A stretch of 64,000 nucleotides of DNA, taken from positions 580,942 to 644,941 of the forward strand of contig LUCM01004193.1 in the NCBI GenBank assembly GCA_008360955.1, in the 5' to 3' direction. The DNA is from Fasciolopsis buskii (lineage: Eukaryota > Platyhelminthes > Trematoda > Plagiorchiida > Fasciolidae). Positions 5,574 to 56,849 of this stretch are shown one piece after another. How positions within the stretch are numbered: position 1 is the stretch's first letter; each line of letters starts with the position of its first letter. Below the pieces are notes generated by a model. It was not told the origin of the DNA, ran no database searches, and worked only from the letters and a program-made list of their open reading frames with translations. The position numbers and the translations under genes are program-made.

Positions 5574-5762
5574 GCGAATATGTGGAGTCAGGAGTGTGCA
5601 TGGAAGATCTTCGTCAAAAAGTTCACAGAAGAACCGCAACTGTGATTCATTGGTAATTCTTTGTCAGTTGGGCTGAGCCAACCTCGGGAACGAGGGTGCA
5701 ATGCCCCAGAATATACATATATACCAGTAGTAAGTAGTATCTGGATGAGTGAACAAAATTTG

Positions 5763-5790
5763 CCCGTGGGCACACGACCGGTTTCGCGAC
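5763..5790 (-). ncRNA. Hammerhead ribozyme 3' half (5' core lost)
   Basis: On the minus strand GAAA-CC-GGUC-GUGUGC is present, the same 3' core and 3' strand of stem I as the other copies. Upstream, the expected CUGANGA box and CAAUAA-looped stem II are replaced by an unrelated segment that includes the small hairpin GAAG-UU-CUUC. This copy should not cleave. It forms the left arm of the inverted pair with the copy at 5890-5946. Confidence 0.5.
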
Positions 5791-5889
5791 GAAGAACTTC
5801 TATGCACAATCCTGATGTTACAAATTCGGTTCTGGTGAGACCTTCTAATTCGGAGTGTACAAGTAGAAAGATGTTTGGACAAGACAGTA

Positions 5890-5946
5890 CCGGGTACGCA
5901 AACCTAACGAGCGACAATAATCGCGAAACCGGTCGTGTGCTCCCGG
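5890..5946 (+). ncRNA. Hammerhead ribozyme, G5-mutated copy
   Basis: All helices of the hammerhead are present. Outer stem I pairs CCGGG (5890-5894) with CCCGG (5942-5946). Inner stem I pairs GCAAAC (5898-5903) with GUGUGC (5935-5940), with one A-G mismatch. Stem II is GCGA (5911-5914) with UCGC (5921-5924), closed by CAAUAA. GAAA is at 5925-5928, followed by ACC/GGU with no loop, and C17 at 5934. The first core box reads CUAACGA (5904-5910) instead of CUGANGA. The invariant G5 has become A, so cleavage is expected to be lost. The perfect stem II alongside a dead core suggests a copy that once worked. Confidence 0.75.
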
Positions 5947-6412
5947 AAAAATGATGTTCACTTATCCAGATAGTTTTTACTACTTATATATATATAAGTT
6001 AGCATCCATTGATGAATTCATTTGTACTTGTCAATTAAATGTTATAATGCCAATGAAAGTTATTTAATAGAATTAGTGCTGAATTGAGATCGAAATTTTC
6101 TCAAGGTAATAGCTCCAAGATTACCTTTTATCAACGAACGGTCAAGAAGGCCTGAGCATATTTATATAATCAGAAATTCGAAGAAAGTAAACAATTTCTC
6201 CATGATCTTAATTCGTGATAAAATGACTGTTTTCGTTTAGTTTCGAGTAGATCAGATAAATGCATTCAACTTCTCTGATTATACCTATTCTTTGTTTTAT
6301 GGGGGAATCAGATATTGCTGAATAGTTTGCAGTCATGTTTCAATTCTCTTTCTCCTCACTCCGGTTTCGACCCCGAATTATTTCTTCAGTACTATCCTTT
6401 TAGTCGCTACTC
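5921..6412 (+). repeat. 492-bp direct repeat, copy 1
   Basis: Appears base-for-base identical to 6702-7193 (offset 781) and ends exactly at the N at 6413. Identity over 492 bp in otherwise diverged DNA suggests an assembly duplication rather than an old genomic one. Confidence 0.85.
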
Positions 6413-6413
6413 N
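6413..6413. other. Single N: assembly join
   Basis: The only ambiguous base in the window. Sequence before it recurs at 6702-7193; sequence after it is the reverse complement of about 5769-6077. It marks a contig join, and the true gap or overlap length is unknown. Confidence 0.95.
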
Positions 6414-6722
6414 ACTAATTCTATTAAATAACTTTCATTGGCATTATAACATTTAATTGACAAGTACAAATGAATTCATCAATGGATGCTAACTTATATA
6501 TATATAAGTAGTAAAAACTATCTGGATAAGTGAACATCATTTTTCCGGGAGCACACGACCGGTTTCGCGATTATTGTCGCTCGTTAGGTTTGCGTACCCG
6601 GTACTGTCTTGTCCAAACATCTTTCTACTTGTACACTCCGAATTAGAAGGTCTCACCAGAACCGAATTTGTAACATCAGGATTGTGCATAGAAGTTCTTC
6701 GTCGCGAAACCGGTCGTGTGCT
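6414..6722 (-). repeat. Inverted copy of 5769-6077
   Basis: Position p here pairs with 12491-p. The segment therefore contains an inverted copy of the hammerhead at 6545-6601 (minus strand). It begins with the complement of the flank at 6077 and switches into the direct repeat inside the shared motif GCGAAACCGGTCGTGTGC. That is the structure expected if an assembler crossed the inverted repeat and folded back. Confidence 0.85.
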
Positions 6723-7193
6723 CCCGGAAAAATGATGTTCACTTATCCAGATAGTTTTTACTACTTATATATATATAAGTTAGCATCCATTGATGAATTC
6801 ATTTGTACTTGTCAATTAAATGTTATAATGCCAATGAAAGTTATTTAATAGAATTAGTGCTGAATTGAGATCGAAATTTTCTCAAGGTAATAGCTCCAAG
6901 ATTACCTTTTATCAACGAACGGTCAAGAAGGCCTGAGCATATTTATATAATCAGAAATTCGAAGAAAGTAAACAATTTCTCCATGATCTTAATTCGTGAT
7001 AAAATGACTGTTTTCGTTTAGTTTCGAGTAGATCAGATAAATGCATTCAACTTCTCTGATTATACCTATTCTTTGTTTTATGGGGGAATCAGATATTGCT
7101 GAATAGTTTGCAGTCATGTTTCAATTCTCTTTCTCCTCACTCCGGTTTCGACCCCGAATTATTTCTTCAGTACTATCCTTTTAGTCGCTACTC
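6702..7193 (+). repeat. 492-bp direct repeat, copy 2
   Basis: Copy of 5921-6412, beginning inside the hammerhead GAAA region and continuing without a break into unique sequence at 7194. It probably represents the same genomic locus as copy 1. Confidence 0.85.
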
Positions 7194-31446: not shown

Positions 31447-32300
31447 TTGTCAAGTAGTGTAGTAGGTGGTTTTCTGTCTGTTAGCTCACATTTTCTCAAG
31501 CCTCGTCAGCCTCTGAATCTCGGTTCCTTCAATGTGCGCACTTTAATACAGGCTGGCCAACAGGCGTGTTTGGTTCTGACAGTGGACTCACTTTCGATTG
31601 ATGTCTGCTGCGTTAGTGAAACACGAATTCAGAATTCGAGTAGAATAATTCAACTAACTGCGCCAAATGTCTCGTCAAGATATTTTCTTCGCATTTCAGG
31701 AGACGGAGCAGCTCAAGCTGTGGGTCAGCGTGGTGTAGGACTAGTCTTAAGTGAGAAGGCTGAAGCAGCCCCTTTAGATTGGGTCCCAGTCAACAGTCGC
31801 TTGTGCGCCGAGAGACTGCAGGGATCAGTTGGCGTCCGAAAGGATAGTAGTGTAAAGCGTAGTTTATTTGTTATCTCGGCATACGCTCCCACAGACTGCA
31901 GCACTGATATGGAGAAAGACGAGTTTTACGATAACCTAGTCACTCTTGTTCGGAAGAGCAAACGCTCTGACATTGTAGTGGTAGCAGGTGACTTTAATGC
32001 ACAAGTTGGAAAACTGAGTGCATCGGAGTCCTGTTTAGGTGAGCGATGCGCCTTGCCTGCATAGCGAACAGACAACGGGGAAAGACTTCTCCAATTCTGT
32101 GCAGATAATCATTTATTCCTATCTGGTACGAATTTCCGACACAGTTCGCGTCACACTGCGACATGGCGCTCTAACTCGACGGGTACTTTGAGTCAGATTG
32201 ATCATATCGCAGTTAGCTACCGTTGACGCAGTTCTGTCCAGAATTGTAGATCATACTGGACCATGTAGTTCGATTCGGACCATGCGTTAGTTTTAATGCG
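31447..32300 (+). pseudogene. RTE-like AP endonuclease domain
   Basis: An open frame of 205 codons (31447-32064) carries the exonuclease/endonuclease/phosphatase fold motifs: SFNVRTL (residues 27-33, catalytic Asn), CVSETRIQ (catalytic Glu at 58), VISAYAPTD and VVVAGDFNAQVG (GDFNAQ at 181-186). It ends at a TAG (32062-32064). The same frame then continues across further stops (TGA at 32224, TAG at 32266) with TATWRSNSTGTLSQIDHI and FDSDHALV, the closing T-W-x-S, Q-I-D-H-I and S-D-H motifs. All key catalytic positions therefore survive and only nonsense mutations inactivate it. It would nick the target strand in target-primed reverse transcription. A related, more decayed copy lies at 57590-58210 on the minus strand. 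Confidence 0.8.
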
Positions 32301-39699: not shown

Positions 39700-39895
39700 C
39701 TTCTCAGTAGTATATTTCGCATGCGGGTGGATCAACAAAGTTTGCCGGGGAGCACACGACCGGCTTCGCGGTTATTGCTGCTCTTCAGGAATGTGTACCC
39801 GGTATTCTTTTGTTCAATCATACCCATACTAGTGTGTTGTGTTCGTTTCTTATTTTCTCAATAGAATCTCATTTGAGTCGTTAGGAGCTTGACTG
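39700..39895 (-). mobile_element. Hammerhead repeat unit, subfamily B, copy 1
   Basis: On the minus strand the order is: GCTCCTAACGACTCAAATG (39893-39875), a spacer with CACTAGTATGGG, the hammerhead (39802-39745), then the tail TTTGTTGATCCACCCGCATG and ATATACTACTGAGAA. The same order occurs on the plus strand at 56036-56222, which shows it is a unit of the repeat rather than chance. No protein is encoded. Confidence 0.7.
39745..39802 (-). ncRNA. Hammerhead ribozyme, nearly intact copy
   Basis: On the minus strand CUGAAGA (39788-39782) is intact, and GAAG replaces GAAA (39767-39764). GAAG keeps G12, A13 and A14 and changes only A15.1, which would form a G-U pair with U16.1. CC/GGU follows with no loop, with C17 opposite plus base 39758. 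Stem II is GCAG/CCGC with one A-C mismatch and the CAAUAA loop. Inner stem I (ACAUUC against GUGUGC) has a U-U and an A-C mismatch; outer stem I pairs CCGGG with CCCGG. Cleavage may be weak rather than absent. Confidence 0.7.
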
Positions 39896-40097
39896 GATGG
39901 AGATTCTAGTGATAGTCTTATTTATTTTATCGTGAGAGGAATAACTCATTTGGCAGGAATCAGTGACTCTTAAATTGCGGCATTTGGCTACTGAACTCAA
40001 GCATTCGCTTGATAAAAACGCAATACTTCACCAAATCTGTGGTTCTGAATTTTCATTAATGAAAAATTTCACCAACTTTAGGGAAAGGAGAAAATGA

Positions 40098-40240
40098 GAA
40101 GAAAAACCAATACTTTCGGGCCTTGTGTCCTCTTTCTCAACGTTAGCCTGACCCTCCCATGAATCATCACGTGATACTTAAATAGAATTTCACCCATTCA
40201 CACTCCTAACGGTTCAAATGAGATTCTAGTGAGAAACTAA
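40098..40240 (+). repeat. Hammerhead-repeat middle segment, subfamily B
   Basis: Reads GAGAAGAAAAACCAATAC, TTTCTCAACGTTAGCC, and ACTCCTAACGGTTCAAATGAG. The first two blocks match the complement of 55850-55905, which directly adjoins a hammerhead tail. The last matches the segment just upstream of the hammerhead at 56036. This piece therefore bridges the end of one ribozyme unit and the start of the next, giving the sequence expected between two successive hammerheads. Confidence 0.6.
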
Positions 40241-49464: not shown

Positions 49465-49540
49465 TTTTCAAACCGGTCGTGTGCTTCCGGGGAAATTTCG
49501 CCCATCCATCCATATGCGAAACATACTACCGAGATGAGTC
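49465..49540 (+). repeat. Hammerhead-repeat 3' end, 5' truncated
   Basis: Reads TTTTCAAACCGGTCGTGTGC, CTTCCGGGGAAATTT, then CATCCATATGCGAAACATACTAC. This matches the hammerhead 3' half and the subfamily B tail. GAAA has become CAAA, and the sequence upstream has no CUGANGA or CAAUAA stem II. It is a fragment that begins within the ribozyme, near the cleavage site. Confidence 0.6.
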
Positions 49541-55422: not shown

Positions 55423-55946
55423 GTAAACCCGAAAATACGGAAACTCCAAGTGTGTACCGATAATAATTTTTGCTTATTACACCTATGACAATCAGATCGC
55501 AACAATCTAGTCTGGTGATAGTTACAACAGTTTTGACTTAGTCGCGAGACGTGGTGAAAAATGGTGCATCTTCGATGACTGCAAAATCTCAATATCACAT
55601 GTTTGAATTAATGAATAAGGGGAATTGATGCTTGAATTACTTCGCACTACAGCGTCCCGCACATTTTGTTAATACTATTGTTGATATTAACACTATGAAC
55701 AAAACTATTGTTGTTTCTAGGTCTGCTGCTATGGATGAACTGAAATTCATTATCTCGATAGAACCTCATTTGAATCCTATGGGGCGCGAATGGATGATAA
55801 GTCCATTAAAAAATCATGTGGTAATTCGTCGCAGGATTTTCATTGATCAGGTACGGCTAACGTTGAGAAAGGAAACATAAGACCCGAAAGTATTGGTTTT
55901 TCTTCTCAGTAGTATATTTCGCATACGGATGAATAAACGAAGTTTG

Positions 55947-56004
55947 CCCGGAAGCACACAACCGGTTTCGCAGTTATTGCTGCTCTCCAGGTTTGGGTGC
56001 CCAG
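55947..56004 (-). ncRNA. Hammerhead ribozyme, A6-mutated copy
   Basis: On the minus strand stem II GCAG/CUGC is perfect with the CAAUAA loop, GAAA (55969-55966) is intact, and ACCGGU forms the loop-less stem III. The first box is CUGGAGA (55990-55984): the invariant A6 is G. Position 17 is U rather than C, which is tolerated in hammerheads. Stem I is CCAAAC against GUGUGC with mismatches, and CUGG/CCGG outside. Likely inactive because of A6G. Confidence 0.7.
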
Positions 56005-56123
56005 TATTCTTCTGTCCAACCATCCCTATACTAGTGCGCTCCTAACGATTCAAATGAGATTCTATTGAGAAACTAAGAAGCAAGTGCAGCACACTAGTAT
56101 AGGGGTGGTTGGACGCTAGAATA

Positions 56124-56180
56124 CAGGGTACGCATACCTGAAGAGTGGCAATAACCGCGAAACCGGTCATGTACTTCCGG
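56124..56180 (+). ncRNA. Hammerhead ribozyme with intact core
   Basis: Core box CUGAAGA (56138-56144) and GAAA (56159-56162) match the CUGANGA/GAAA consensus. Stem II is GUGG (56145-56148) with CCGC (56155-56158) and a CAAUAA loop. Stem III is A15.1-CC with GG-U16.1 and no loop nucleotides. C17 is 56168, predicting cleavage between 56168 and 56169. Inner stem I (56132-56137 with 56169-56174) has C-A mismatches where this copy has A but other copies have G (AUGUAC versus GUGUGC); outer stem I is AGGG against UCC(G). ACCGGU is self-complementary, so two molecules can form a shared stem III. It is the best candidate for residual activity. Confidence 0.8.
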
Positions 56181-56222
56181 GAAAATTTTGTTGATCCATC
56201 CGTATGCGAAGTATACTGCTGA

Positions 56223-56849
56223 GAAAAACAAAGTACACCTGTGAAAATAGCTGCAAACGCCGATACCCGTCAACATTTAGTAATCTAGAAAACAAATCAG
56301 CCGAACAATTATTTTTGAAATTTCTAAATTGCCACTAAAATTTTTATGGCATATACCTAGGCGACAGAGAATAATTGAATTTCAATGGCGTGTATGCTTA
56401 CGTGTCGGGCATGATGCCATAACACCGATGAATGGGATAGGTGATTAGGTCACGAATGTCATCCGATCAGTGTTATGACAATGATTGTCACTGTGTTGTA
56501 TGGGTGCACCCGTGTGCGTTGAGGCAGGCCATCATGAGTGCAGGGCGTAAACCAAACGTTCTTGTCCACAGGGGGTAGGGGTCGAACGCTTGATCCCTGA
56601 AGCTTCAGAAATCTCAAGCATTTTATTCGGATTTGTTTGGATCCACTAGGCGGCGACTGGTAGATGATCCTAAATGCTTGTTTGGGTCTATAAGGTAACC
56701 AGAGTCTACGAGGTGTGGTCAGGTGGTGCCAGATATAGTCCCTGATCTCTGGGTGGTGCTTGTTCATGCGAATGGATAATTACCGACTCATTCGAATGAG
56801 ACAGAATGCGTCACAGACACACCTGAATCTGTTCCATCACTACGACTTA
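56223..56849. other. Unclassified segment between repeats
   Basis: A minus frame at 56459-56767 (102 codons, PEIRDYIWHHLTTPRRLW) has no recognised domain. Its higher GC content resembles retroelement DNA more than the AT-rich spacer. It may be a 3' UTR or another insertion adjoining the RTE-like remnant that ends near 56850. Confidence 0.3.

Follow-up and report, generated by a model that had tools for sequence, protein, structure and literature searches.

The question raised by this locus is what kind of element carries the hammerhead ribozyme found at 56122..56183 on the plus strand of the window, the 64,000-nucleotide stretch of Fasciolopsis buskii DNA analyzed here, and how that element came to be inserted. 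All of the core letters claimed by an earlier note on this DNA are present. The core (56138-56168) contains CUGAAGA at 56138-56144, with C3 at 56138, and GAA; stem II, GUGG/CCGC with a CAAUAA loop (56145..56158), pairs at 4/4 positions, one of them G-U; the loop-less stem III, ACC/GGU (56162..56167), pairs at 3/3; and C17 lies at 56168, so that the position within the core predicts cleavage at 56168..56169. The flanking stem I segments are likewise present, the 5′ strand at 56132..56137 facing 56169-56174, yet over the six proximal positions counted only 4/6 pair, and an A-C mismatch, read from the letters, adjoins the scissile bond. The suggestion of remaining cleavage activity is accordingly weakened, and the activity of this copy is doubtful in view of this decay of stem I. 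Its self-complementary ACCGGU would allow a dimer mode, by analogy with hammerheads having such a stem III, for which dimeric action is described (PMC7229834, PMC7761336). At the Rfam gathering score the window gave no match, whereas a search at relaxed threshold identified the hammerhead as an HH9 match (21.2 bits, E 0.011). Its assignment to the retrozyme/PLE-type mobile-element hammerheads (PLE, Penelope-like element) with a loop-less 3-bp stem III stands, as does the expectation that a protein-centered annotation would be blind to it.

The window site belongs to one of the two arms of a decayed copy, arranged head-to-head, of a hammerhead retrozyme of ∼300 nt. The whole insertion, at 55753..56228, belongs to the form that we call A and consists of two inverted repeats, I1 and I2, bounded by ends of two kinds, L and S. 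The L site is the left end of the insertion, at 55753 (TCTCGATAGAACC), and the S site is its right end, CTGCTGAGAA, at 56216-56225. The sense arm (56037..56228, plus strand) ends at S and matches a sister copy, L014, at 83%. The antisense arm (55753..56043, minus strand) runs past S to L, with 55759-56039 corresponding to L014 positions 66-345, and is labeled L. The arms share a center junction, CGCTCCT (56037..56043), a 7-nt overlap that fits both. The antisense arm contains a second hammerhead on the minus strand (55944..56004, core at 55990; HH9 19.4 bits, E 0.042), which is decayed by two core changes, CUGGAGA and U at position 17. Both hammerheads lie inside inverted repeats of 144 nt that are 83% complementary. 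The minus-strand hammerhead and the head-to-head structure had escaped the earlier note. The insertion is flanked by no clear target duplication, the match being of 5 nt only.

Searches of the 703-Mb genome place this copy in a large family. The pattern CTGAAGA-N14-GAAACC has 582 exact matches, compared with 28 when the pattern is reversed. A version extended by GGTC and left open at position 7, CTGANGA-N14-GAAACCGGTC, which covers the core and the loop-less stem III, has 1,876 matches, some of these places being the two arms of a single copy, and its reversed control has 0, which puts the hammerhead core beyond chance. An intact sister copy, L006, has the complete architecture of a type I hammerhead: the core CUGANGA...GAA...C17, stem I paired at 6/6, stem II at 4/4 and stem III at 3/3 positions, and an open stem I. 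Its HH9 score (41.9 bits, E 1.3e-7) is the best among the sisters and, like those of the two window hammerheads (21.2 and 19.4), lies below the Rfam gathering cut-off of 52 bits. The family shares with HH9 (RF02275) the core, a 6-bp stem I with an internal loop and a distal stem, and a stem II of 4 bp capped by a comparable A-rich loop, but differs in lacking the stem III loop and in its score, 41.9 against 52 bits. By hand count on the alignment, 6/10 stem I and II pairs differ on both sides between HH9 and L006 and are still paired. Covariance across copies, the absence of which the earlier note named as a finding that would count against a ribozyme, was looked for and none was found within the family: in a shuffle test on 42 rows, all selected for an intact core, 84.7% of cells were paired compared with 84.9% in shuffles, and over 81 arms the observed pairing equaled the independent expectation. 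We give this absence little weight because the copies look as expected if a single source with complete pairing had decayed neutrally. Minimal PLE hammerheads, a class with helix III reduced or lacking that occurs in the PLE pseudo-LTR (pLTR), are said to lack helix III (PMC6155905); the fluke family shows a loop-less stem III. Within the trematodes, the schistosome Sm-alpha is a hammerhead in a small nonautonomous retroelement (PMC6155905), which the fluke family resembles in its description.

Form B, which is younger, occurs in tandem arrays whose units follow one another at intervals of exactly 317 nt (C54 and C164; loci L077 and L078, both of which exceed two units), and two adjacent units are identical at 313/317 positions. 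Form A, which is older and includes the window copy, has a repeat length of 299 nt in L014. An open reading frame (ORF) of PLE size would not fit into the unit, and no ORF with RT and GIY-YIG was found in it. Animal non-LTR retrozymes are described as units of ∼170-400 nt with a type I hammerhead, in tandem, without an ORF and found together with PLEs, and flatworms are among their named hosts (PMC7229834). The fluke unit is likewise a small, noncoding tandem unit with a type I hammerhead, and because of its unit size, tandem order and ribozyme we assign the family, on sequence grounds, to the animal-type retrozymes. It differs from those described in that stem III lacks any loop, as reported for PLE hammerheads, in that many copies are head-to-head dimers with S and L ends, and in one direct fusion to a PLE.

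The positions at which copies end bear on how they were inserted. For form B, 59 loci were picked by the ribozyme pattern alone and 91 arms were mapped. Outer ends fall at S (unit positions 88-105) in 56/91 arms and at L (253-257) in 15/91, so that 71/91 end at one of two sites, which lie ∼157 nt apart on the 317-nt unit. Inner ends, in contrast, are scattered over the unit, with no clear clustering at S (25/91 compared with 20.4 expected) or at the ribozyme cut (4/91 compared with 3.4). Among 45 single arms, 35 end at S, 3 at L, and 7 elsewhere. Some of these may be hidden dimers, given that in L101 an antisense L arm of 22 nt, below the reach of BLAST, lies to the left of the sense arm. The 20 head-to-head pairs comprise 9 that are S/L, 1 S/S, 1 L/L, and 9 with one end elsewhere, so that 9 of the 11 typed at both ends are S/L; the S/S exception, L109, is at its locus edge, and the L/L exception is L136. 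Three opposed neighbors are tail-to-tail. In form A, exactly one arm is L in 23/27 dimers, two in none, and neither in 4, in a sample biased by the 22 loci retrieved for their similarity to the window dimer, with the window copy itself as one more, and in a scoring for which S is the default label, the ends being also read by eye. The four form A dimers found by pattern alone (L005, L040, L045, and L046) each have one L arm. One arm stops short of S in L025 and L040.

Direct repeats in the flanks of form A dimers exceed the 95% level of mispaired flanks in 13/27 and the 99% level in 10/27. With exceptions, the copies show the Penelope-like mode of insertion: head-to-head arms, a tail on one arm and a short target duplication. 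The center junctions vary from copy to copy, which indicates that dimers arose many times. Repeated copying of one master palindrome is ruled out by this variation and by the finding that long and short form A arms are not separate lineages, the observed value being attained in 638/1000 label swaps. Arms of one form B copy are more alike (90.0%) than re-paired arms (87.6%; 6/5000 as high), as judged from the 10 of 17 entered pairs with sufficient overlap. For form A, likeness is 0.719 within and 0.716 between copies, so that private changes common to both arms of a copy are not upheld overall; the core part gave 0.767 within and 0.760 between (180/5000 as high), and the informative columns were matched in 1056/5000.

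Published accounts name PLEs as likely candidates for the agent of animal retrozyme mobility (PMC7229834, PMC7761336), and the fluke genome contains them. A genome search for the PLE endonuclease scored 150 of 2,892 candidates. PLE ORFs match GIY-YIG at 28.6 bits (above the cut-off of 22.6) and at 20.3 bits (below it), and RVT_1 at 20.7 bits, below its cut-off of 29.6; their homologs in other animals, including flatworms, have RVT_1 and PF26215. Among the matches listed, six opposed pairs lie within 2.5 kb, all minus-then-plus, that is, head-to-head; in two other close pairs (C6187, C1057) both members are on the same strand. In two of the pairs, L065/L066 and L068/L069, arm identity is 99.3% over 693 nt and 98.5% over 273 nt, and in both one arm is short and the other ∼50-60 nt longer, each running into (TA)n. 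The PLE mini-dimer L107 has the same pattern of short and long ends, and all three of these PLE dimers, typed at both ends, obey the S/L rule. A further dimer, L113, has an L end and its other end elsewhere. Insertion into (TA)n was seen at most PLE loci inspected. The proposal that form B too lies nearly always in (TA)n came from 16 hand-picked flanks and is ruled out by a count in which at least 6 TA occur in the 40 nt after S at 22/55 usable loci; a target common to PLE and retrozyme is accordingly only partial. Two further observations concern PLE sequence near retrozyme sequence: the long PLE tail in L107 contains, at 451-465, CTACTGAGAAGAAAA, 15 letters of the form A S site (noted by eye and given no weight), and L059 has a broken GIY-YIG-like stretch (1501-2406) with one internal stop, at a distance of ∼440 bp from a head-to-head retrozyme of form A.

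At one locus, L076, the two elements are joined. A retrozyme arm whose S end lies in TA-rich DNA continues without a break into PLE ORF sequence in antisense orientation; the opposite arm consists of 2.2 kb of PLE and has its long (L) end in (TA)n. We read L076 as one insertion, in which the enzyme would have copied retrozyme RNA and then moved to PLE RNA; alternatively, a retrozyme was inserted beside an older PLE and a deletion followed. No further fusion was found among the 59 form B loci, three of which (L092, L107, and L113) have a PLE piece nearby, or among the best 40 of 2,510 candidates in a junction search of the genome. The titles and abstract openings surveyed, in which the subscription literature is thinly covered, include no title reporting a retrozyme–PLE fusion or S and L ends of a retrozyme.

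We consider it probable that the window copy was inserted by the copying enzyme of a PLE, priming on retrozyme RNA from both cut strands of the target. Tandem copies would be transcribed into RNA, which the hammerheads, probably paired through ACCGGU, would cut into units, and a host ligase, as in published retrozymes, would close the units into circles. The PLE protein would cut the target DNA; judging from the end positions, synthesis on the first DNA end would start at RNA site S and, in dimers, that on the second at L, and the two cDNAs would meet and join at junctions that, as observed, vary. The PLE protein of the lizard Anolis is described as cleaving and extending both strands and as beginning synthesis at two internal positions of the RNA (PMC11167929). 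Rotifer Penelope has head-to-head arms, a tail on one arm, and duplications of 8-10 bp (PMC3846280). The fluke retrozyme resembles Penelope/Poseidon-type PLEs in its head-to-head repeats, one-arm tail, short duplications, and two internal RT start sites (PMC3846280, PMC11167929) but is unlike them in having no ORF, a far shorter template, and start sites separated by ∼157 nt on a 317-nt unit.

The rotifer dimers have been explained otherwise, by self-priming (snap-back) on an antisense template (PMC3846280), and this is the alternative that we take most seriously, although we think it unlikely here. Consistent with it, a GCGCTCC/GGAGCG stem stands at the center of many form A copies, and the PLE dimer L113 turns, by eye, at a natural hairpin, as suits self-priming; the likeness of form B arms within copies would fit snap-back and twin priming equally. 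Yet the junctions vary and often lie outside the GCGCTCC/GGAGCG stem, the start sites of the two arms differ, one being S and the other L, and the retrozyme part of one L076 arm has no mirror in the other arm. It is for these reasons, the variable junctions, the different start sites, and the L076 fusion, that priming from both strands is favored.

A different objection is that there is no separate retrozyme and that the repeat is a fragment of the PLE itself, an inverted pseudo-LTR, given that PLE pLTRs are described as bearing minimal hammerheads and as occurring inverted (PMC7761336, PMC3846280) and that the retrozyme at L092 lies ∼320 bp upstream of a PLE. We regard this as improbable, and more so than self-priming: the tandem units of 317 nt leave no room for an ORF, PLE loci L071, L072, and L073 gave no hammerhead match (their 5′ sides may be cut), and L076 is the only one of 17 PLE loci (11 distinct places) that abuts a retrozyme. 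Much the least credible origin is a MITE, a foldback DNA transposon bounded by terminal inverted repeats, with a hammerhead present by chance; this would explain a palindrome with opposed ends and short duplications, but not the variable center, the 317-nt tandem arrays, the matching PLE dimers, or the single arms, 35/45 of which are fixed at S with a variably truncated inner end.

Insertion by a PLE enzyme, the reading that we prefer, is itself weakened on several sides: the retrozyme–PLE fusion is single, 14/27 form A dimers fall below the 95% level for direct repeats, form A arms are not clearly more alike within copies, S is a default label, covariation within the family is absent, the L113 dimer turns at a hairpin, and the match in (TA)n is partial. 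The form of the template also bears on it. Among 30 S-ended single arms, counted with the arrays L077 and L078 left out, 15 span 293-380 nt and none is longer, whereas the stop rate seen earlier predicts that ∼12 of the 15 would exceed 380 nt. The template may therefore be circular or otherwise limited to about one unit; the reach of the enzyme is probably not limiting, in that a PLE arm attains 2.2 kb. That copies cross the ribozyme cut without clustering there indicates a template that was uncut or rejoined. Against circles, inner ends show no clear excess at S, and the arrays L077 and L078, each exceeding two units, may reflect either repeated passage round a circle or a linear multimeric template, so that circles are at present a matter of inference. 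With this in mind we suggest, tentatively and as less likely than the PLE origin of the window copy, that retrozymes are Penelope's SINEs: circular ribozyme RNAs with two docking sites on the same small circle, at which the PLE enzyme would prime the first cut DNA strand (S) and the second (L). If this is true, then mirror-image genomic copies would constitute a fossil record of two-strand priming. PLE-like insertion marks and one joint insertion make the question of which enzyme moves animal retrozymes directly testable, and the S/L dimers amount to numerous natural records of a possible use of both DNA strands in PLE-type insertion, a little-known step.

Several other features of the window were noted. 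A form B head-to-head retrozyme lies in (TA)n at 5574-5996, with its L end on the left and its S end on the right; its sense core, CUAACGA, is probably dead. This copy is repeated within 5712-7193, at 100% over 492 nt in direct and 96% over 366 nt in inverted orientation, and the palindrome near 6.4 kb, which lies next to a single N at 6413, was set aside as looking like an assembly error. A third, heavily decayed copy in L074 was uninformative. A tRNA scan gave no match. Form A sequence is present at 39700-40240, as an antisense arm with an S end, ∼190 nt of other sequence, and a sense S-to-L piece, and at 49470-49537, as a short truncated copy with an S end. Finally, a partial endonuclease ORF of LINE type lies at 31447-32064 (Exo_endo_phos at 22.1 bits, slightly short of the cut-off), and its named relatives, at 41-63% identity, are mostly from schistosomes and also from Trichobilharzia, Clonorchis, and Dicrocoelium.
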